Of a stretch of 20,568 nt of DNA, positions 200-20,568 are shown piece by piece. How positions within the stretch are numbered: position 1 is the stretch's first letter; every line of letters starts with the position of its first letter. The translations under genes and the position numbers were made by a program. Origin of the DNA: a virus; the IMG/VR virus record IMGVR_UViG_3300042542_002163, positions 1 to 20,568 of that record, one strand, 5' to 3'. The notes beneath the pieces are model-generated. The model was not told the DNA's origin and ran no database searches. It worked only from the letters and a program-made list of their open reading frames with translations.

Positions 200-840
200 A
201 ACAAGAAATAAAAATAGAAGTACCTACTAAATGGAGTGCAGTAACTCTAAGACAGTATTTAGCTTTAAGAAAAGATTTGGACACATACGTTGGAGAAGAA
301 GAAGCTATAACGGCTTGTTTGTTTCATCACCTATGCGATTTTCCATTAGAGTATATACAGCAATTGAATATAGATACATACATTGCTATTAGACAAGATT
401 TAATTAACTTCTTTAACAATATAGATTTACCCCTACAAAAGTTTATCCAAATAAATGGAGTAGAGTATGGGTTTGAGCCTGATTTAAGTAGAATGGCTTA
501 TGGTGCTTATGTAGATATATCAAAGTACGAAACGTTTGAGATAAATGAGAAGTGGGCTGAGATAATGAGCATTCTTTATAGACCCCTAATTAAAACAACA
601 GGCAAACTATATGATATTAAAGCATACGATGGTACAATAGATGGTGATAAGTTTATGGATGTCAGTATGGATATCCACTTTGGCACACTTTTTTTTTTGA
701 AAACTTTATTAAAGGACTTACTGAAAGATACCCAGAAGTCTTTGACGGGATTGACGGGTCTACCTCAGAACATCAAATCCGTTTTGGAAAGAAATGGAAA
801 TCTTATTCAAGCCTTGTCCAACTCGCACAAAACGATATAA
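196..840 (+). CDS. Putative tail assembly chaperone, short (0-frame) product
   Basis: This 214-residue product starts at the ATG that overlaps the previous stop. The N-terminal part (motifs PTKWSAVTLRQYLALRKDL near residues 10-28 and EPDLSRMAYGAYVDISKY near 94-111) matches, from memory, a family in Bacteroidota-type phages that sits among tail genes. I infer a tail assembly chaperone, the analogue of lambda gpG, which helps load the tape measure during tail building. Codons 165-168 read across a run of ten T (689-698). After it the 0 frame continues for 46 residues to the TAA at 838-840, while the -1 frame stays open to 959 with convincing protein sequence. The function is inferred from family memory and from this G/GT-like arrangement. 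The gene lies far from the tape measure (18516 onward), which is unusual for a chaperone. Confidence 0.6.
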   Translation: MKQEIKIEVPTKWSAVTLRQYLALRKDLDTYVGEEEAITACLFHHLCDFPLEYIQQLNIDTYIAIRQDLINFFNNIDLPLQKFIQINGVEYGFEPDLSRMAYGAYVDISKYETFEINEKWAEIMSILYRPLIKTTGKLYDIKAYDGTIDGDKFMDVSMDIHFGTLFFLKTLLKDLLKDTQKSLTGLTGLPQNIKSVLERNGNLIQALSNSHKTI

Positions 841-959
841 CACGCTTTGATGAAATAACCAAAGAACCATTGGAAAAATGCTTATTGATGTTAGCATATC
901 AGGCTGATGTAGCATTCTTGGAAGAACTTATGTATAAGGAAGCTGTGAAGAAAGGTTAA
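196..959 (+). CDS. Putative tail chaperone, -1 frameshifted long product (254 aa)
   Basis: A -1 shift on the heptamer T TTT TTG (693-699) moves the ribosome to GAA at 699-701 and gives 86 further residues ending at TAA 957-959. The total is 254 residues. The -1 frame is open from 651 (after TAA 648-650) to 959. Its first ATG is at 888, near its end, so it could not make this domain by its own initiation. The extension reads as real protein, with stretches such as RFGKKWKSYSSLVQLAQ, DITRFDEITKEPLEKCLL and YQADVAFLEELMYKEA, and a motif order I recall from partners of this chaperone family. The heptamer fits the X XXY YYZ rule used by lambda G/GT-type frameshifts. I saw no obvious stimulatory hairpin or upstream SD. 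The alternative is an indel error in the T10 run, which would make this one uninterrupted gene. Confidence 0.6.
689..699 (+). promoter_or_regulatory. Candidate -1 programmed frameshift slippery site
   Basis: Ten T followed by G, read in the 0 frame as CTT TTT TTT TTG AAA. The last heptamer, T TTT TTG, allows both tRNAs to re-pair as TTT TTT in the -1 frame. It joins two overlapping frames that both look coding (see the two products starting at 196). Confidence 0.55.
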
Positions 960-1194: not shown

Positions 1195-1442
1195 TGCCAA
1201 CACCAGCTCGTAATCAGAATCAAAGAAAGAATAGTGGTATTTATTTAGGAGCTACTAGAGGTAGAGCAATCCCACATAATAAGCGTAGAGCTTGTTTGTG
1301 TAAAGATTCCGAAACTTACTCTATGGACTGTTGTAATGGTGCTCTTGTTGGACAATCCATAGGAGCTACTCAATCAGCAGCTGTACAAAGAGGAGCGTTT
1401 AGTAGTGGATTCTCATCAGGATTTGACATCGGAAATATATAA
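1194..1442 (+). CDS. Small Cys-motif protein B (CxC-x9-CC)
   Basis: An 82-residue basic protein and paralogue of the preceding gene. The core RRACLCKDSETYSMDCCNG has Cys at 34, 36, 46 and 47, the same CxC-x9-CC spacing, and is again followed by a Q-x-IG segment (GQSIGA). The N-terminus is Arg/Asn/Gln-rich. The C-terminus is longer than in copy A and ends in a Ser/Gly/Phe-rich tail (FSSGFSSGFDIGNI). The ATG shares one base with the upstream stop. It sits directly before the large fibre gene, so a role in virion assembly or as a minor structural protein is plausible, but this is inference from position only. Confidence 0.7.
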   Translation: MPTPARNQNQRKNSGIYLGATRGRAIPHNKRRACLCKDSETYSMDCCNGALVGQSIGATQSAAVQRGAFSSGFSSGFDIGNI

Positions 1443-1458
1443 TAAAAAAGATAGAATA

Positions 1459-4400
1459 ATGTCTCAATTAAATAAAACACAGCTAGAAGCAGAAAATCAA
1501 AGTAGTTTCCCTAATAACAATACGGGATTTATTACTCCATTAAAATTAAGAGAATTCAATACTGATATGATTGATTCTTTTGTTGATGAAATTGAGTATA
1601 ATATAAACTCAGCATCAGTTAGTTCATCAATCTCAATGTTAGAAGCACAGGTAGATGGACTAGTATTATCTGGTAGTGGTGTTGTAATATTAGATGAAGG
1701 TATATCGCAAGGTTCAGCTACATCATTAAACTTTGTTGGACCTACTATTGCAGTAAGTGTGACTGGTTCAGTAGCTAACATATATGCAAATACATCTGGA
1801 TTAGCAACAACTGGTTCTAACGTATTCTCAGGCTCACAATATATTACGGGTAGTAGTGGAATTACAGGTTCTTTTTCTATTCAAGGTGATTTAATTATAA
1901 ACGGAACATCTTATAACGCAGCCACAAGCGGAACATCAGGAACTTCTGGAACTGGTGGCACATCAGGTACTTCAGGTACAAATGGTTCGCAAGGTGTAAG
2001 TGGAACAGCAGGTTCATCAGGAACTTCTGGAACAAGCGGAACATCAGGAATAAATGGAACTTCTGGTAGTGGAGGTAGCTCAGGTACTTCAGGCACATCT
2101 GGTACAAGCGGTACAAATGGTACGGCAGGTAGTGGTGGTTCATCAGGAACTTCTGGAACTAATGGAACGGCTGGTAGTGGAGGTTCTTCAGGTACCTCAG
2201 GTACAAGTGGAACTAACGGAACTGCAGGTAGTGGTGGTAGCTCAGGCACAAGCGGAACAAGCGGTACAAGTGGCACATCAGGTACAAACGGAACAGCAGG
2301 TAGTGGTGGCTCAAGCGGCACATCTGGTACAAGCGGTACGAATGGTACGGCTGGCAGTGGAGGCTCTTCAGGCACATCAGGAACTTCAGGAAGTAGTGGC
2401 ACAAGCGGTACAAGTGGGACTAGTGGCACATCTGGTACTTCTGGTTTAGGATTAAATTGGCAAGGAGTTTGGAATAGTGGAACAACATACGCAATTAATG
2501 ATATAGTAGAATACAATGGTTCATCATATATTGCAATAAATGTTAGCTTAAATGAGAATCCAGCTACACAAATTCTTTATTGGAATTTATTAGCACAAAA
2601 AGGAACGGATGGTACTTCAGGTACGTCTGGTACATCAGGCACATCGGGAACATCTGGGACTAGTGGAACAAGCGGTAGTAGTGGAAGTTCAGGAACTTCT
2701 GGTGTGAGTGGAAGTGATGGCACAAGCGGCACATCGGGTTCGTCTGGAACAAGTGGTACATCGGGTTCGTCTGGAATAAGCGGAAGTGATGGTACATCAG
2801 GAACATCGGGTACAAGCGGTACAAGTGGGACTAGTGGAGAAAGTGGTAGCAGTGGTTCAAGTGGTACATCAGGCTCATCAGGAACATCAGGAACCTCAGG
2901 TTCATCTGGAATAAGTGGAAGTGATGGTACATCAGGGACTAGTGGCACATCTGGGACTAGTGGAGTAAGTGGAAGTTCAGGTTCGTCTGGAACTTCAGGT
3001 ACGAGTGGTACTAGCGGTATATCTGGTTCAAGTGGTACATCCGGAGCAACAACAATATTAACAATAGCTGATGAAGGTACAGCGCAAGGTTCAGCAACAT
3101 TCTTAAACTTTAGTGGAAGTGGTGTTACTGCAACTGTAAGTGCTGGTACAGCATCAATCATAATAAGTGGTGGAGGTAGTGGAGTAGGATTTCCTTTCAC
3201 AGGCTCTGCACAAATAACAGGCTCTTTAGGAGTAACTGGTTCAGCTAAATTTAATGGTACAGCTGATTTCACTGGTGGTGATTTCAAAGTTACTGACCAA
3301 AATAGAAATGGTGAATTTGATGTAGATTACTTTAAGGTAAAGACACAAAAAGGTTCACAATTTACTGGAAGCTTAAGTGTATCTGGTTCAATAACAATTA
3401 CAACAGGTTCATTTAGTGGAAGTGTTATTTCTAACGTATTTGATACATACACAAATGTACCACCTGTTACAAATGTAATCACATTAACATCTGCTTCATA
3501 CGCAACTTTAGTAGCAAGTGCACAAACTGACCCTAATACAATGTATATCATTAGTGGTAGTAACTTAACTGCTGGTTCATCAGGAACATCTGGAACAAGT
3601 GGAACTTCAGGAACATCTGGAGTGAGTGGTGCAGCTGGTAGTAGTGGTACATCAGGTGTTAGTGGTACATCTGGCACAAGTGGTACATCAGGAACATCAG
3701 GAACTTCTGGAATAAATGGTGTAGCTGGTAGTAGTGGTACAAGTGGACTTACACCATCATTAGGATTCGCTTCTGGTTCAACAAATATTGGAACAGCAAG
3801 TTATCTACAATTTAGTGGAAGTTCCGTACAAGCTCTTACAATTACGAATAACACTGCATCTATCACATTAGCTGGTGGAAGTGGAACTGGTGTAGGATTC
3901 CCTTTTAGTGGAAGTGCACAAATAACAGGTTCTTTAGGAGTAACTGGAAGCTTGACAGTATTGAGTGGCTCATTTAGTTCATCAGTAGTTACCAATTTAG
4001 GTGACATATATACTGATGTACCGCCAGCAACTAAGATAGTAACATTAACATCAGCATCATACGCTGCATTAGGAACTAAAGACCCTAATACATTATATAT
4101 CTTAAGTGGTAGTAATGTTAATGGAGCAAATGGTACATCAGGTACTTCAGGAACAAGCGGAACATCAGGTGTGACAAGTACGATAGCAGTAACTGCATCA
4201 TTTGTAGCAGAAGAAGGTACAACATTAGGAGCATTTGGTTTAATGAACTTTATTGGTTCAGGTGTAACAGCAACATTGAGTGGAACAACTGCATCTATCA
4301 CAATAACAGGTGGTGGAGGAGCTGGTTTCCCATTCTCTGGTTCAGCAGTAATAACTGGTTCAGCTTTTGGAAATGTGGTATCTGCATCAATTGCATCAAA

Positions 4401-4674
4401 TACTGCATCAATTGATTTTACAGCAGGTAACTTCTATACATCTTTAGTAACTGGAAACACATTCTTTAATGTAACTGGAGTAGGGCCCGGTCAAACAGCA
4501 AACTTATTATTAACAACAGTAGGTTTATCAACTGCATCATTTAGTTCAAATGTTAAGCAAGTGAGTGGAAGTAGATATGTACCATCATCTGGTAGTAATA
4601 ATACTGACCTATTATCATTTGCAGCATTTAATTCAGCATCAATTTTTGTAGTAGCATCTAAAAAATTCATTTAA
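1459..4674 (+). CDS. Giant collagen-like tail fibre with embedded CBM-like domain
   Basis: This 1071-residue fibre uses ATG 1459. An in-frame GTG at 1405 would overlap the upstream gene, and MSQLNKTQLEAEN is a typical fibre N-terminus in such phages. Layout: head domain (residues 1-157); collagen-like block 1 (158-329, Gly every third residue, mostly G-T-S, G-S-S and G-T-N); a compact insert (330-381) with the W-x6-Y-x4-IVEYNG-x-SY pattern of family 5/12-like carbohydrate-binding modules; block 2 (382-529); beta-rich modules; block 3 (706-763); more beta modules; block 4 (889-904); C-terminal domain (905-1071). The triplet repeats imply a trimeric rod. The CBM-like and C-terminal parts probably contact the host surface polysaccharide. 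There is almost no proline, so triple-helix stability without hydroxyproline is uncertain. The repetitive DNA may be mis-assembled. Confidence 0.85.
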   Translation: MSQLNKTQLEAENQSSFPNNNTGFITPLKLREFNTDMIDSFVDEIEYNINSASVSSSISMLEAQVDGLVLSGSGVVILDEGISQGSATSLNFVGPTIAVSVTGSVANIYANTSGLATTGSNVFSGSQYITGSSGITGSFSIQGDLIINGTSYNAATSGTSGTSGTGGTSGTSGTNGSQGVSGTAGSSGTSGTSGTSGINGTSGSGGSSGTSGTSGTSGTNGTAGSGGSSGTSGTNGTAGSGGSSGTSGTSGTNGTAGSGGSSGTSGTSGTSGTSGTNGTAGSGGSSGTSGTSGTNGTAGSGGSSGTSGTSGSSGTSGTSGTSGTSGTSGLGLNWQGVWNSGTTYAINDIVEYNGSSYIAINVSLNENPATQILYWNLLAQKGTDGTSGTSGTSGTSGTSGTSGTSGSSGSSGTSGVSGSDGTSGTSGSSGTSGTSGSSGISGSDGTSGTSGTSGTSGTSGESGSSGSSGTSGSSGTSGTSGSSGISGSDGTSGTSGTSGTSGVSGSSGSSGTSGTSGTSGISGSSGTSGATTILTIADEGTAQGSATFLNFSGSGVTATVSAGTASIIISGGGSGVGFPFTGSAQITGSLGVTGSAKFNGTADFTGGDFKVTDQNRNGEFDVDYFKVKTQKGSQFTGSLSVSGSITITTGSFSGSVISNVFDTYTNVPPVTNVITLTSASYATLVASAQTDPNTMYIISGSNLTAGSSGTSGTSGTSGTSGVSGAAGSSGTSGVSGTSGTSGTSGTSGTSGINGVAGSSGTSGLTPSLGFASGSTNIGTASYLQFSGSSVQALTITNNTASITLAGGSGTGVGFPFSGSAQITGSLGVTGSLTVLSGSFSSSVVTNLGDIYTDVPPATKIVTLTSASYAALGTKDPNTLYILSGSNVNGANGTSGTSGTSGTSGVTSTIAVTASFVAEEGTTLGAFGLMNFIGSGVTATLSGTTASITITGGGGAGFPFSGSAVITGSAFGNVVSASIASNTASIDFTAGNFYTSLVTGNTFFNVTGVGPGQTANLLLTTVGLSTASFSSNVKQVSGSRYVPSSGSNNTDLLSFAAFNSASIFVVASKKFI
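1930..2445 (+). repeat. Collagen-like triplet repeat block 1
   Basis: Fifty-seven Gly-x-y triplets keep perfect phase. A longer unit, GTNGTAGSGGSSG, occurs five times, separated by one to four GTS triplets. Codons vary synonymously from copy to copy. Confidence 0.9.
2602..3045 (+). repeat. Collagen-like triplet repeat block 2
   Basis: Forty-nine Gly-x-y triplets in perfect phase. It contains the higher-order units GSSGISGSDGTSGTSG (twice) and GVSGSDGTSG (once). Confidence 0.9.
3574..3747 (+). repeat. Collagen-like triplet repeat block 3
   Basis: Nineteen Gly-x-y triplets, with interrupting GVSGAAG and GINGVAG units, lying between two beta-rich modules of the fibre. Confidence 0.85.
4123..4170 (+). 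repeat. Collagen-like triplet repeat block 4 (short)
   Basis: Five Gly-x-y triplets (GANGTSGTSGTSGTSG) link the last two beta-rich modules of the fibre. Confidence 0.8.
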
Positions 4675-9808: not shown

Positions 9809-10762
9809 ATGAGAAAACAACAAAATTTCGCAGAACCTTCAATCACCACAACTTATGCTGGTGAATTCGCAGGGAAGTACATTGCAGCAGCGTTGTTATC
9901 AGCAAAAACTTTAGATAACCAATACATCACAATCATGCCGAATGTGAAGTTTAAGAGTGTTATCCAAAAGATTGCAGTTGATAATATTGTAGTTGATGCA
10001 TCTTGTAACTTCACAACTTCTGGTTCAGTAACTCTTACTGAGAGAATCTTAGAACCAAAGGAACTTCAAGTAAACCTTGAATTATGTAAGCAAGAATTCG
10101 TAGATTCTTGGGAAGCTTTACAATTGGGCTATAGCGCATTTGATGAGATTCCAAAAGATTTCAACGATTACTTAGTATCTTATGTTGGTGGTAAAGTAGC
10201 ACAAGCTACTGAAGAATCAATATGGAGAGGTGTTGCAGCAACTAACGGACAATTTGGTGGTATCTATACCGCTTTATCTTCTTCAGTTGTAGCAGGTGGC
10301 TCTAACGCTCCTGTAACTGCATCAATTTCTGGTTCAATTACTTCAGCAAACGTATTAGCTAATTTACAATCTTTAGTTGATGCAATCCCTACTACTGTAT
10401 ACGGTAAAGAGGATGTAATGATTTACGTTCCAACAAACGTAGTAAAAGCTTACCAACAAGCGTTAAGCGGTGGTACAGCTGGAGCAAATGGCTGGAACAA
10501 TTCCATGAATGTTGGAGAGAAACCTCTTAACTTCCAAGGAATTGAGATGGCATTTTGTCCTGGTCTTGCAGCTTCAGCAATGATAGCAGCACAAAAATCA
10601 AACTTATTCTTCGGAACAGGTTTATTGAGTGACTACAATGAAGTAAGAGTATTAGACATGGCTAATCTTGATGGTTCTCAAAACTACAGAATCATAATGA
10701 GATACACAGCTGGTACACAATATGGTATCGGTTCTGACATCGCTTTATACAAAAACTATTAA
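9809..10762 (+). CDS. Major capsid protein (HK97-fold type)
   Basis: A 317-residue protein that follows the scaffold candidate and precedes a strong hairpin. The central part (TERILEPKELQVNLELCKQ at about 76-94, then FDEIPKDFNDYLVSYVGGKV) is the segment I recall as conserved in major capsid proteins of Bacteroidota siphophages. The later segment VYGKEDVMIYVPTNVVKAYQQAL followed by GIEMAFCPGL resembles the peripheral-domain region of HK97-type capsids. The N-terminus lacks an obvious long delta domain, which agrees with a separate scaffold gene. The codons look better chosen than in neighbouring fibre genes (more AAC, TTC, CCA), as expected for the most abundant virion protein. I am confident of the role. 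The fold itself is not proven here. Confidence 0.85.
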   Translation: MRKQQNFAEPSITTTYAGEFAGKYIAAALLSAKTLDNQYITIMPNVKFKSVIQKIAVDNIVVDASCNFTTSGSVTLTERILEPKELQVNLELCKQEFVDSWEALQLGYSAFDEIPKDFNDYLVSYVGGKVAQATEESIWRGVAATNGQFGGIYTALSSSVVAGGSNAPVTASISGSITSANVLANLQSLVDAIPTTVYGKEDVMIYVPTNVVKAYQQALSGGTAGANGWNNSMNVGEKPLNFQGIEMAFCPGLAASAMIAAQKSNLFFGTGLLSDYNEVRVLDMANLDGSQNYRIIMRYTAGTQYGIGSDIALYKNY

Positions 10763-10806
10763 TTGAGTAAGTAATAGGGAGATTAACCATATCTCCCTTT
10801 ACTCAA
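10763..10806 (+). terminator. Two-part hairpin terminator after the capsid gene
   Basis: The inner stem AGGGAGAT (10776-10783) pairs with ATCTCCCT (10791-10798) around a 7-base loop. An outer stem TTGAGTAA (10763-10770) pairs perfectly with TTACTCAA (10799-10806), with a five-base bulge (GTAAT) on the left arm. There is no long T run, so it may act as a terminator, an mRNA 3'-end stabiliser or both. Confidence 0.7.
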
Positions 10807-10837
10807 AAACAAATTGACAATTTAAAAAACTAAAACT

Positions 10838-11395
10838 ATGGCTTGTAATTTATCAGCTGGAAGAAATGAACCTTGTAAAGAGAGTGTAGGCGGCTTAACT
10901 GGCGTGTACTTCTTAAACTATACAACCGCTTCTTTCACCTACAAAACTCCGGGGGACCCGAGTTCTGAAATCACTGCCTTCCCTTCTGGTAGTACTGTGT
11001 ACTATTATGATTTGAAAGGTAACTCAAGCTATACTGAAACTGTTAATTCATCTCGTGATAACGGTACAACTTTCTTCTCTCAAGAATTAACTCTTAACTT
11101 GAAGAAACTTACTAACGAAATGACTACTCAATTAAAGTTGATGGCGTATGGTAGACCACAAATTGTGATTAACACCATGGCTGGAGATTCTTTATTAGTA
11201 GGTAGAACACAAGGAGCAGATGTAACTGCAGGTACAATTCAAACAGGAGCAGCATTGGGTGACCTTTATGGTTATTCAGTAACGTTCACTGGATTAGAAC
11301 AATTACCAGCAAACTTTATCTCTGGTTCAACATTCGGTAATCCTTTTGGAGCATTGACTGTTAAACCAACTATCGTAACAGGTAGCGCAGCTTAA
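10838..11395 (+). CDS. Major tail (tube) protein
   Basis: A 185-residue protein between two hairpins, the typical setting for a highly expressed tube subunit just after the capsid gene. It begins MACNLSAGRNEPCKESVGGL, a start I recall for tail-tube proteins of Bacteroidota phages. It contains an extended beta region (GVYFLNYTTASFTY, GSTVYYYDLKGNSSYTETVN), a long central strand and helix (FFSQELTLNLKKLTNEMTTQLKLMA) and a final beta part with GYSVTFTGLEQLPANF. This order agrees with the two-sheet plus helix fold of tube proteins such as lambda gpV. Cys 3 and Cys 13 are near the N-terminus. A discrete transcript bounded by hairpins would allow separate control of its level. Confidence 0.75.
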   Translation: MACNLSAGRNEPCKESVGGLTGVYFLNYTTASFTYKTPGDPSSEITAFPSGSTVYYYDLKGNSSYTETVNSSRDNGTTFFSQELTLNLKKLTNEMTTQLKLMAYGRPQIVINTMAGDSLLVGRTQGADVTAGTIQTGAALGDLYGYSVTFTGLEQLPANFISGSTFGNPFGALTVKPTIVTGSAA

Positions 11396-11418
11396 TCAGT
11401 ATAGATTTTGACAATATT

Positions 11419-11446
11419 AAAGGGAGACTAAGTTCTCCCTTTTTTT
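11419..11446 (+). terminator. Rho-independent terminator after the tail-tube gene
   Basis: Stem AAAGGGAGA (11419-11427) pairs with TCTCCCTTT (11434-11442) around the 6-base loop CTAAGT. A T run (11440-11446) completes a classical intrinsic terminator. The GC core is the same as in the hairpin after the capsid gene. Confidence 0.85.
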
Positions 11447-11472
11447 ATGTCCCACTATAATCGTTTAGGAAG

Positions 11473-11480
11473 TTGTTAAA
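11473..11480 (+). promoter_or_regulatory. Recurrent intergenic motif TTGTTAAA (copy 4)
   Basis: The octamer follows the terminator and lies 32 bases before the ATG at 11513. Transcription of the portal/tail block must start or pass through here, so a promoter element is plausible but unproven. Confidence 0.35.
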
Positions 11481-11512
11481 TATATAGATAAATACAACAT
11501 AAAGACAACCTA

Positions 11513-11878
11513 ATGCAAAGTTATTATATATCAGGAAGTAATTTATTCACATTTCGTACAAAACCAACAGGCTCAGGCGTATTAACCCTAAGCTTGCAGA
11601 ATATGTACACATTAGCGAATACAACATCTTCTATTAGTGCATACAAATATAATGCCAATGAAAGCTTATTATCATTCACTGCATCTATATCTTCATCAAA
11701 TATTGGAGATGAATATAGAGCTACCATATTGGATAGTGTTAGTGGAAGCATTTGGAATGGCTCTATACAAGTGTATCAATCCCAATCAATAGATAAACCA
11801 GTATATAAAAACCAAATTCCATTAGAAGGAATATACATTAGTAATGTAACGGATAACCAATACATAATTTTAGATTAA
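11513..11878 (+). CDS. Unrecognised small beta-rich virion-module protein
   Basis: A 121-residue protein with an alternating polar/hydrophobic pattern: YYISGSNLFTFRTKP, then VLTLSLQNMYTL, LLSFTASISS, YRATILDSVSGSIWNGSIQVY, and a final GIYISNVTDNQYIILD. This predicts a single beta sandwich, perhaps Ig-like or similar to the N-terminal domain of baseplate upper proteins, but I do not recognise a family. It is the first gene after the tail-tube terminator and ends one base before the portal start (TAATATG). It is therefore the leader of the portal/connector transcript. A minor head or tail structural role is likely by position. I claim no specific function. Confidence 0.6.
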   Translation: MQSYYISGSNLFTFRTKPTGSGVLTLSLQNMYTLANTTSSISAYKYNANESLLSFTASISSSNIGDEYRATILDSVSGSIWNGSIQVYQSQSIDKPVYKNQIPLEGIYISNVTDNQYIILD

Positions 11879-11879
11879 T

Positions 11880-13169
11880 ATGAAGATAAATCAAAACTTT
11901 TCGGTAGTAAACATGGCACAGCAAGAGATTCCTGTGGTAACTGAAGATACAAAAACAAGATATCAATGGGTGCCTGTTGGAATAATAGGACCTGATGACT
12001 TCTTTCAAAATGTGACAGAAGCTTTCACAACATCAACAACAAATGCTGCCTGTATTGAGGGTATAGCTGATTTAATATTTGGTAAAGGATTGTACTCTAA
12101 AGATGAGGCTTTCCAAACTGTATTGGATAAGTTAATTCCACAAGAGGAAATGAAGCGTGTATCGTTTGATTTAAAACTATATGGTAATGCAGCTTTCCAA
12201 GTATATTGGAATGCAGACCATAGTAAAGTAGTTAAATTCTATCACGTTCCAGTTCAAAACTTAAGAGCTGAGAAGTTGTACGATAATCCTAAGATTGAAA
12301 ACTATTACTATTGTGTAGATTGGACTGACCAAAAAGCAATTAGAAACAAAAAGAAAGTTCCAGCTTTTGGTACATCAAATGAAAAGATGGAGATTCTTTA
12401 TATTAAGAATTATTCACCAGGTAAATATTATTACTCATTACCTGATTGGGTATCTGCATTACAATTCTCTTATGTAGAAGCTGAATTATCTAACTTACAT
12501 ATCAACAATATTGAAAATGGTTTCTTACCATTAGTGATGGTTAATATGAATAATGGTATTCCAGCTCCTGAGGAAAGAGATACAATTGAGGATATGATTG
12601 AGGCTAAGTTTACAGGCACTAGAAACGCTGGTAGATTTATGTTATCATTCAACGATGACCCAGAAAGAAAACCAACTATTGAAACAATACAGGTTGATAA
12701 TCTGCACGATAAATACAAATATGTTAGTGAATATGCACAGGATAGAATCTTAGTTGCACATAGAGTAACATCTCCTCTTTTATTTGGTATTAGAACACAG
12801 GCTAATGGCTTTAGTTCTCAATCTGAAGAAATGATGACAGCATTCTCTATCTTACAAACTATGACAATCAATCCATTCCAAAATCTAATTATAAACTTTT
12901 TAACTACTGCACTAAGTGAAGGTGGATACGAAGATGTTGAATTGTATTTTGAGCAATTAACTCCATTAGCAATCTTATCACAACAAGCTGAGGATACTGG
13001 TAAAACAATTGATGAGGTATCTGAAGAAACTGATAAGCAAATGGAAAATCCAGCAACAACTGAAGATGATGGAGCTGATTTAGTTGATAGTGGTATTGAT
13101 AACGCAGATGAGGTTTTACAAATGAGTAATCCACAATTTACAAAGCAATACGAAGTATATAAAAATTAA
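11880..13169 (+). CDS. Portal protein
   Basis: A 429-residue protein. The dodecameric portal forms the DNA channel at the head vertex and binds the terminase and connectors. Visible portal features are an N-terminal helical region (FFQNVTEAFTTSTTNAACIEGIADLIFG, cut here by position at about residues 41-68), a clip/wing region (FKLYGNAAFQVYW-like segment at about 97-110), the PDWVSALQF and ELSNLHINNIENGF helices, and a C-terminal stretch (DRILVAHRVTSPLLFGIRTQANGF) common in phage portals. The last 60 residues are acidic. Start 11880 is chosen because it follows the upstream stop in the recurring TAATATG pattern. An internal ATG at 11913 is possible. The terminase genes are not in this window. 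Confidence 0.85.
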   Translation: MKINQNFSVVNMAQQEIPVVTEDTKTRYQWVPVGIIGPDDFFQNVTEAFTTSTTNAACIEGIADLIFGKGLYSKDEAFQTVLDKLIPQEEMKRVSFDLKLYGNAAFQVYWNADHSKVVKFYHVPVQNLRAEKLYDNPKIENYYYCVDWTDQKAIRNKKKVPAFGTSNEKMEILYIKNYSPGKYYYSLPDWVSALQFSYVEAELSNLHINNIENGFLPLVMVNMNNGIPAPEERDTIEDMIEAKFTGTRNAGRFMLSFNDDPERKPTIETIQVDNLHDKYKYVSEYAQDRILVAHRVTSPLLFGIRTQANGFSSQSEEMMTAFSILQTMTINPFQNLIINFLTTALSEGGYEDVELYFEQLTPLAILSQQAEDTGKTIDEVSEETDKQMENPATTEDDGADLVDSGIDNADEVLQMSNPQFTKQYEVYKN

Positions 13170-18379: not shown

Positions 18380-18526
18380 ATGATTAAAAATATAATAGAT
18401 TTGTTAGCAATGGGAGAATTCTATGGTATATCCAGAGAAGTTGACACGGCTAAAGGAAAATATAAGATTCCATATAGTTGGAAAGAAGCAAAACAACAAA
18501 TAAAACGCATTTGGTATGGCAGATAA
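18380..18526 (+). CDS. Small 48-residue basic protein overlapping the tape measure start
   Basis: The ATG at 18380 opens a 48-codon frame ending at TAA 18524-18526 (MIKNIIDLLAMGEFYGISRE at the start, SWKEAKQQIKRIWYGR at the end). It overlaps the first four codons of the tape measure gene (18516). The product is basic, with an amphipathic N-terminal helix and a basic, aromatic C-terminus. I recognise no family. The tight overlap is usual for real phage genes and suggests translational coupling to the tape measure. It sits where many phages put a small protein just upstream of the tape measure. A chance ORF is possible given its length. Confidence 0.5.
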   Translation: MIKNIIDLLAMGEFYGISREVDTAKGKYKIPYSWKEAKQQIKRIWYGR

Positions 18527-20568
18527 TACAACAACCTACACAGCCGTTATTGAAACAAAAGTTACTGGTGCCGATGAGGTTGGTGATTTAGGTGATAAGG
18601 CGGAAGGAGCTGATGGTAAATTTAAATCTTTAAGGTCACAGATTAGAGAAACTACTGTTGCTCTACAAAAGCTTGCTGATGAAGGTAAGACTGGAACTAA
18701 AGAATTCCAAGACCTATCAAATCAATTAGATGATTTAAATGATTCACAACAAAGAGTTGCTTTCCAATCTGCTCAAATAGAAGATAAGTTAGCAGCATTA
18801 CCTGGTCCTATTGGTGCCATTGGTAAATCATTTCAAAGTGCTAAAAATGCAGTTGATACATTTGGTAAAACATTAGCTGTATCATTGGGTATTATAGGTT
18901 TATTAGTTTCAGCTTTCTTAGCAATTAAAGAATCATTAAGTAGAACTGAAGAAGGACAAGCTAAGTTAAATAAAATTACTGAAGCATTTACTAAGATAAT
19001 GAACGGAGTGTTTGCTATCATAGAACCAATTGCTATGTTATTCGCTGATTTAGTTATTGAATTGCTATCATCTGATAAGGCGATGAAAGCACTATCTACA
19101 GCTGCAGGTGTTTTATCAGCAACATTCACAACACTATTCAATGTAGGTAAAACTTTAGTAGGATTTATTGTAAACAATATGATTAATGCTTTCAAAACAT
19201 TATCAGAAGTTGCAGGTGGTGCTGGTAAAGTTTTAAAGGGTGTGTTTACCTTTGATTTAGACTTAATTAAGGAAGGTGTATCGCAGGTAGGTGATGGTAT
19301 CAAAAACGGATTTAAAGCTACTGTTGACAATGTAAGGAACACTGTGAAGGGTATTGGCACAGGTATTGCAGATGGAATTAAGAGTGGAATGGAGCAAGGC
19401 TCTAAAGCATTTACAGCCGGCTCTAAAAGATTAACTGAAGCTGAAAAGAAAGCAGCTGAAGAAAGGAAGAAAGCTGCTTTGGAAGCTGGTAAGAAACAAA
19501 GTGAGGATGATAAAAAATTAGCAGAACAAAGAGCAAAAGATTTAGAAGCTGCTAGTAAAGTAGAAACTGAAGCTTATCTTGCTACATTAGATGCTAGAGA
19601 TAAAGAAGTATTTAAGAGAGGACAGAAATTAAATGAAGATATAAAAGCATTAGAAAAAGCTGGTATTAAAGATTTAACTGCTGTTAAGGAAGCTTATCGT
19701 TTAGATGTATTAGCAATCAATACAAAATACGATGAGGAAGAAGCTAAGAAGATAGAAGAAAAGAAAACTAAAGATAAAGAAGCAGCTAAATTAGCATTTG
19801 AAGAAGCTGTATTAAATAATGAGAATCAAACTCAACTTGTTGAAAATAGATATAATTCAGAAATTGCTTTAATTAATGAATCAGAAAAATCTAAGATAGC
19901 AGCTATACAATATGCTAACTCACTATTATTAGAGGATGAAACACTAAACGAAGAACAAAGAAAATCTATAATTCAGCAAGGTGCACAAGCTATAGCTCAG
20001 GTTCAACAACAAGCTGCAACTGACAGATTAGCACAACAAACTCTAAGATACGATGAATTAATTGGAGTTATTGATGCAAAAGAGAAGTTAGCACTTTCTA
20101 ATACTGAACTTAATGAAGCTCAGAAAACTAAGATACAATTAGATGCAATTGCTGAAAGAAAAGCAATTGAGCAATTAGCTACTGAAGATGCTATATTAGG
20201 TATTGATACGGAGTTAGAGAGAATAGGAACAACCTTTGATAGAAAGAAAGAGTTAATTGGATTGAAAGAAGCCGAATTGTTATCGCAAGAAGGTTTAACT
20301 GAAAATCAAAGAACTGCTATCAGACAGCAAGGTGCAGATGAAAGAGCAGCAATTGATATGGCTGAAATGGAAGCTAGAGTTGCTTTACAAAATGCTCAAT
20401 TAGATTTAGCTGCACAATTTGGTGGATTATTAAAAACATTGGCTGGAGAGAATAAGAAGGTAGCAATCGCTGGAGTAGTTGTAGAACAAGCTGCAGCAAT
20501 TGGTAAGATATTAGTTAATACAGGTATTGCTAACGCTAAAGCAGTAGCAGCATCTCCATTAACATTTG
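18516..20568 (+). CDS. Tape measure protein (3' end cut by window)
   Basis: The frame is open from ATG 18516 to the window edge (684 codons seen, no stop). Residues 1-90 are polar helices with VTGADEVGDLGDKAEG and LDDLNDSQQRV, a start I recall for tape measures of aquatic Bacteroidota phages. Residues 118-137 form a hydrophobic helix (KTLAVSLGIIGLLVSAFLAI), and 160-182 a second, weaker one. Residues about 300-620 are a long Lys/Glu/Ala/Gln coiled coil. The last visible part (FGGLLKTLAGENKKVAIAGV, then VAASPLTF) is the hydrophobic segment usually found near the tape measure C-terminus, so perhaps only a short tail is missing. It sets tail length and helps DNA entry through the cell envelope. 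Confidence 0.85.
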   Translation, partial: MADNTTTYTAVIETKVTGADEVGDLGDKAEGADGKFKSLRSQIRETTVALQKLADEGKTGTKEFQDLSNQLDDLNDSQQRVAFQSAQIEDKLAALPGPIGAIGKSFQSAKNAVDTFGKTLAVSLGIIGLLVSAFLAIKESLSRTEEGQAKLNKITEAFTKIMNGVFAIIEPIAMLFADLVIELLSSDKAMKALSTAAGVLSATFTTLFNVGKTLVGFIVNNMINAFKTLSEVAGGAGKVLKGVFTFDLDLIKEGVSQVGDGIKNGFKATVDNVRNTVKGIGTGIADGIKSGMEQGSKAFTAGSKRLTEAEKKAAEERKKAALEAGKKQSEDDKKLAEQRAKDLEAASKVETEAYLATLDARDKEVFKRGQKLNEDIKALEKAGIKDLTAVKEAYRLDVLAINTKYDEEEAKKIEEKKTKDKEAAKLAFEEAVLNNENQTQLVENRYNSEIALINESEKSKIAAIQYANSLLLEDETLNEEQRKSIIQQGAQAIAQVQQQAATDRLAQQTLRYDELIGVIDAKEKLALSNTELNEAQKTKIQLDAIAERKAIEQLATEDAILGIDTELERIGTTFDRKKELIGLKEAELLSQEGLTENQRTAIRQQGADERAAIDMAEMEARVALQNAQLDLAAQFGGLLKTLAGENKKVAIAGVVVEQAAAIGKILVNTGIANAKAVAASPLTF

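Follow-up and report, generated by a model that had tools for sequence, protein, structure and literature searches.

A probable programmed -1 frameshift on a T run, with a long dual-coding overlap, in a terminase-linked gene of environmental phages

In tailed phages, the lambda G/GT type of arrangement, in which a short and a long product are made from one start by a -1 slip, is conserved (PMC5009743). Phage P2 makes its E and E+E' products by a -1 frameshift at TTTTTTG, a pure T heptamer (PMC3091744), and HK97 has a -1 frameshift pair in gp13/gp14. Here we analyse a stretch of 20,568 nucleotides from an environmental virus (IMG/VR record IMGVR_UViG_3300042542_002163, positions 1 to 20,568, referred to below as the window), in which a gene had been predicted from the sequence to slip on a run of ten Ts and so to make the long form of a tail chaperone. 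Like lambda G/GT, this gene would give a short and a long product from one start by a -1 slip; like P2 E/E', it carries the heptamer TTTTTTG, at positions 693-699. Homologues of both of its parts are found in genes 38 and 39 of two Nonlabens phages, P12024S and P12024L, which are in culture and infect a marine flavobacterium, and in which the arrangement is the same: there is a T9 run, the C-terminal part lies in the -1 frame, and the pair directly follows the large terminase gene (TerL). The P12024S/L proteins differ in being only about 28% identical to those of the window and in being annotated as two hypothetical genes.

The layout of the gene was read directly from the window sequence (all features are on the + strand). 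The zero-frame ORF runs from an ATG at 196 to a stop at 840, encodes a short form of 214 amino acids, and is also present in relatives. Its ATG overlaps the stop codon of the upstream gene (196-199, ATGA), of which the 3' part occupies 2-199; this is a small coiled-coil-like gene, which in relatives lies between TerL and the frameshift gene. The run of ten Ts is found at 689-698 within the zero-frame ORF, in the context ...GGC ACA CTT TTT TTT TTG AAA..., and contains an in-register heptamer T_TTT_TTT at 690-696, overlapped by a second one, T_TTT_TTG, at 693-699. In the -1 frame, an open stretch extends from 651 to 959, and it lacks its own start, because its first ATG falls about 190 bases past the T run, within the conserved domain. 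The extension in this frame (699-959) consists of 86 amino acids and a stop, and joined to 196-698 gives a long form of 167 + 1 + 86 = 254 residues. A -1 slip anywhere between 690 and 699 leads to a 254-residue product, so slips on the two heptamers are equivalent in frame and in length. Residues 1-167 are common to both forms, while residues 168-214 of the short form come from the dual-coding stretch at 699-840. The ORF from 196, the open -1 frame and its lack of a usable start were all described in the original prediction and are confirmed by the sequence, and the arithmetic agrees with its figure of 254 residues.

We scanned IMG/VR with the C-terminal and N-terminal parts of the protein, which gave 71 and 73 loci respectively; an alignment-based scan found the C-part motif on at least 574 contigs. 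Both parts are held by 295 loci, of which 167 are distinct around the junction. These relatives come from many metagenomes together with two isolates, and none was found in cellular genomes in scans of genome contigs. In 294 of the 295 loci (166 of the 167 distinct junctions), the C part has to be read in the -1 frame with respect to the N part, which is far beyond chance, and a single continuous frame occurs in none of the 295. The only departure from the rule comes from a plasmid of the Gram-positive Lysinibacillus pakistanensis (L137:12001-12748; CP045836.1), which carries distantly homologous versions of both parts; here the run is T8, and it is the +1 frame that encodes the C part. This exception reflects either a different slip (+1/-2, or by the polymerase) or a one-base homopolymer difference in the record.

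Homopolymers of ten are prone to miscounting, and an indel introduced by sequencing or assembly could make a gene with one continuous frame look like this one. Such an error is extremely improbable here: 167 distinct junctions share the same frame relation with one exception, they are never continuous, and zero-frame stops are avoided past the run, as described below, which an error would not explain. A miscount in the window itself is excluded, because its relatives, including the cultured P12024S and P12024L, share the arrangement. The frameshift arrangement is thus a real biological feature rather than an artefact of sequencing. As the original prediction expected, conservation extends to the T run and to both frames, and the observation is not only correct but more general than could have been known to its author: the frameshift gene occurs widely among environmental phages that have flavobacterial isolates as distant relatives.

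The slip site is conserved in a characteristic way. The run is T10 in 180 loci, T9 in 99 and T11 in 14; the two loci outside this range have T7 (L064) and T8 (the plasmid homologue). At every junction among the 295 loci, T_TTT_TTT is present in register. Two classes of site can be distinguished. Class A, to which the window belongs, has a T as the last base of codon 0 and TTC, TTG or TTA as codon 3 (CTT TTT TTT TTV); class B has a base other than T at the end of codon 0 and TTT as codon 3 (CTG TTT TTT TTT). By parsimony on a tree of 112 sequences, the classes have switched about 12 times, and the combination that would break the heptamer (codon 0 not ending in T together with codon 3 TTV, which gives T8) was never found in these loci; we therefore regard T_TTT_TTT in register as the invariant. 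The original prediction placed the slip on T_TTT_TTG at 693-699. This heptamer is indeed present in the window, but the third base of codon 697-699 varies (C, G or A) within class A, and the conserved heptamer is T_TTT_TTT at 690-696.

We propose, with a probability of roughly 0.6, that programmed -1 ribosomal frameshifting produces the 214- and 254-residue forms as a pair resembling tail assembly chaperones. We infer both the ribosomal nature of the slippage and its efficiency. One start would give two proteins: the majority of ribosomes would read 196-840 and make the 214-residue protein, while a minority would slip back one base on U_UUU_UUU (690-696) or U_UUU_UUG (693-699) and continue to 959, making a 254-residue protein whose C-terminal domain is different and helical. 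Both ends would then be encoded simultaneously by the 141 bases past the slip.

The main rival, and a serious one, is transcriptional slippage, in which RNA polymerase would add one U (or drop two), so that a fraction of the mRNAs would carry both parts in one frame and be translated into the long form. The two mechanisms predict identical proteins. A run of at least nine A or T, expected for transcriptional slippage, is present in 293 of the 295 loci, the exceptions being T7 and T8, and a T9-T11 run is the sort of site at which RNA polymerase slips; long homopolymers are known sites of this kind, for example the A11 run in tssM (PMC4256274). Transcriptional slippage is also in keeping with the fact that no stimulatory RNA structure was found. 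No consistent helix was found when the sequence downstream of the slip site was analysed for a stem-loop or pseudoknot in 36 lineages (mean z -0.8, compared to -0.01 for a control stretch), and a downstream structure is not claimed as a stimulator. Against this, the length of the run is largely explained by the conserved coding of [LIV]-Phe-Phe-[Phe/Leu] together with the heptamer, and L064 keeps the arrangement with only seven Ts. There are three lineages in which codon 1 does not encode Phe, namely P12024S/L (CTT TTT TTT TAT, T9), L064 (CAT TTT TTT ATC, T7) and the plasmid homologue (GTT TTT TTT ATC, T8). All three keep the heptamer, whereas a minimum run of nine Ts is not maintained, as two of them have fewer. 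These cases are few, but retention of the heptamer without the long run favours ribosomal slippage over a rule based on run length, as judged from the sequences, and we consider transcriptional slippage rather unlikely.

It could also be supposed that the two parts are separate genes, with the -1 part translated from its own start; this is how GenBank annotates P12024S, as genes 38 and 39. However, no -1 frame start is conserved ahead of the conserved motif, the first 140-250 bases past the run are devoid of ATG in most relatives, and the start used in P12024S would drop the first part of the domain. An independent start for the C part was rejected on the lack of a conserved start codon, and two separate genes are accordingly very improbable.

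If the long form is made by frameshifting, the bases following the slip serve two frames, and the original prediction suggested that about 140 of them are dual-coding. We carried out a stop test on 36 lineages sharing less than 85% nucleotide identity, using the 36 codons past the slip and synonymous shuffles of the protein encoded in the -1 frame. The shuffles gave an expectation of 70.3 +/- 4.8 zero-frame stops, and none was observed (z -14.7). No such depletion was seen in the controls, for which z ranged from -2.0 to +3.7; these were the remaining frame of the same bases, the sequence past the end of the overlap, and three segments taken from the N part. The pairs share ancestry, so these z values are not strict probabilities, and the controls carry equal relatedness.

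The avoidance of stops could in part reflect a requirement for length alone. However, the zero-frame sequences of distant pairs are 45% identical, compared to 33% in simulations from the -1 frame, an excess of 12 points where control stretches give 2 to 4 points, which suggests that the zero-frame sequence itself matters too. Its motif is, roughly, DL..LKSL...P.NIKSILEKSGN..LLN. Synonymous change in the overlap, which the original prediction expected to be depressed, is cut 2.5-3-fold: conserved codons in close pairs carry 0.072 synonymous differences each within the overlap, compared to 0.17-0.18 for those of the N part and 0.22 for those beyond the overlap. The absence of stops and the raised zero-frame identity bear out the dual-coding claim, and selection acts on both frames of the 699-840 overlap. 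The position of the zero-frame stop is variable, at 38 to 58 codons past the run among the 36 lineages. The overlap is shorter in P12024S, at only about 25 codons, and the long overlap therefore belongs to the larger clade of which the window is a member. We lean slightly towards the view that the zero-frame tail is a functional C-terminal segment, such that 141 bases would encode two selected, alternative ends of one assembly protein, with the dual code kept through deep divergence and signalled by little more than the U run.

The surroundings of the gene in relatives are consistent. A small terminase-like gene comes first and is followed by TerL, which was recognised from Pfam and PHROG; next are a small coiled-coil-like gene, now and then accompanied by an extra gene, and the frameshift gene, behind which come small CLC..CC proteins and a collagen-like fibre gene. 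In the window, the gene is followed at 1006-1442 by two small genes, of 62 and 82 amino acids, with the cysteine motif CLC...CC; a gene of this kind is found behind the frameshift gene in nearly all relatives examined, and the two in the window have no family match. Behind them, at 1405-4674, is a very long, collagen-like gene of GTSGTSGTSG repeats, which is probably a tail fibre and which also lies behind the frameshift gene in most relatives examined. The window's portal gene is at 11880. We note that a likely capsid gene (within 9809-13169; PHROG 11320, a weak match to a head-protein family) comes before it, an order which is unusual for tailed phages. The tape measure gene, which is the expected partner of a tail chaperone, starts at 18516 and runs off the window at 20568 (PHROG 1538, E 9.8e-10), 17.6 kb downstream of the frameshift gene. 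The frameshift gene therefore follows TerL, and is not located between the major tail protein and tape measure genes.

The identity of the protein was approached through family matches and structural predictions. The only significant PHROG match of the window protein is to 32199, to which no function is assigned there; matches to named chaperone families are absent or insignificant, and there is none to PF10109. Thirty-two family members were also scanned one at a time. The family PF10109 (Phage_TAC_7, which includes P2 gpE and Mu gp41) is matched by 11 of the 32, with a best E value of 1.5e-4 and individual scores of 21.5, 20.9 and 18.5 bits, all under the curated cut-off of 25 bits. PHROG 166 (tail protein) is matched by 21 members (best E 1e-4) and PHROG 3140 (tail assembly chaperone) by 7 (best E 0.019). 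Using hhalign, comparison with single sequences of P2 E, HK97 gp13 and lambda G gave nothing, with results that did not exceed those of an unrelated control; when P2 gpE was used as the query, only its near-identical copies were recovered.

The structures of the N and C halves were predicted separately using AlphaFold2. The model of the N part (residues 1-167) has a mean pLDDT of 89. Its top match in the PDB using VIA-align is the HK97 tail assembly chaperone 2ob9, a weak match (Z 3.7, 65 residues) which spans residues 3-78 only. In BFVD, the N-part model matches many unnamed phage proteins, of which P12024S gene 38 is one of the best, and there is a weak match to one named tail assembly chaperone. 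The model of the C part is all helical, with a mean pLDDT of 80; helical matches resembling TFAM, at Z of about 3, were discarded as not meaningful.

A role as a tail chaperone, as originally predicted, is the best reading and is likely, on the strength of the repeated sub-threshold family matches; the homology is nevertheless weak and the gene's location differs from that in lambda. If the pair acts as lambda G/GT and P2 E/E' do, the short form would coat the tape measure protein and the long form would recruit tail tube subunits. Another role in virion assembly, encoded beside the terminase, is somewhat unlikely; the pair could for example be a neck or packaging factor, which would alter only the role of the two forms. 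The gene order around TerL, the location of the P12024S copy directly after TerL, and the weakness of the homology to known chaperones all point in this direction, whereas the repeated sub-threshold family matches, to chaperones and to tail proteins, point away from it, as does the top rank of the HK97 chaperone among the fold matches, weak though this match is, and no better candidate for a chaperone was recognised within the window.

These results add a very large and hitherto unannotated group of environmental phages (at least 574 contigs) to those that use recoding in a virion-assembly gene. The variation of the site, from T7 to T11 in two codon classes with many switches between them, makes the rules of slippage on U runs, by ribosome or by polymerase, directly testable. 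Annotation pipelines split or truncate such genes. In P12024S, genes 38 and 39 (L136:14001-14692) seem to be a single frameshift gene, and the 55 positions of PHROG 38404 apparently derive from a fragment of the C part. A weak structural relative of the N part, at rank 33 in BFVD, is a protein of Flavobacterium phage 6H, which by its length is probably gp10. In this phage (L307:10048-10927, minus strand), gp10 is followed by an unannotated gap of 300 bases with open stretches in other frames; these read like the C part of a chaperone, and are possibly another unannotated frameshift.

Compared with the known systems, the locus shares the mechanism proposed for it and differs in its dimensions and position. 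Its likeness to P2 extends beyond the heptamer to the N-terminal parts of the family members that touch PF10109 below its cut-off. However, the P2 forms are 91 and 142 amino acids long, compared to 214 and 254 in the window; the P2 slip is annotated at 19685 and the end of E at 19705, giving an overlap of about 20 nt; and P2 E+E' lies directly before the tape measure gene T, whereas the window gene is beside the terminase. The HK97 pair differs in that gp13 comes right after the major tail subunit gene; as in P2 and lambda, the pair has tail tube or tail genes on one side and the tape measure gene on the other. With lambda, the parallel that had been drawn holds for the overlapping -1 ORF without its own start (294 of 295 loci) and for the heptamer in register (every junction), but not for gene position, since lambda G/T is flanked by V, the tail tube gene, and H, the tape measure gene. 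Nor was any sequence similarity found between lambda G, as a single sequence in hhalign, and the window protein. The overlap is, as had been pointed out, much longer than in lambda, where G and T overlap by 19 nt as annotated, compared to 141 nt here. The gene thus appears to work like G/GT, and we do not file it as a proven member of that group because its position and its long overlap depart from it. A long overlap selected in both frames is unlike lambda and P2, and it is this dual-coding overlap, together with the position of the gene, that is new relative to both.
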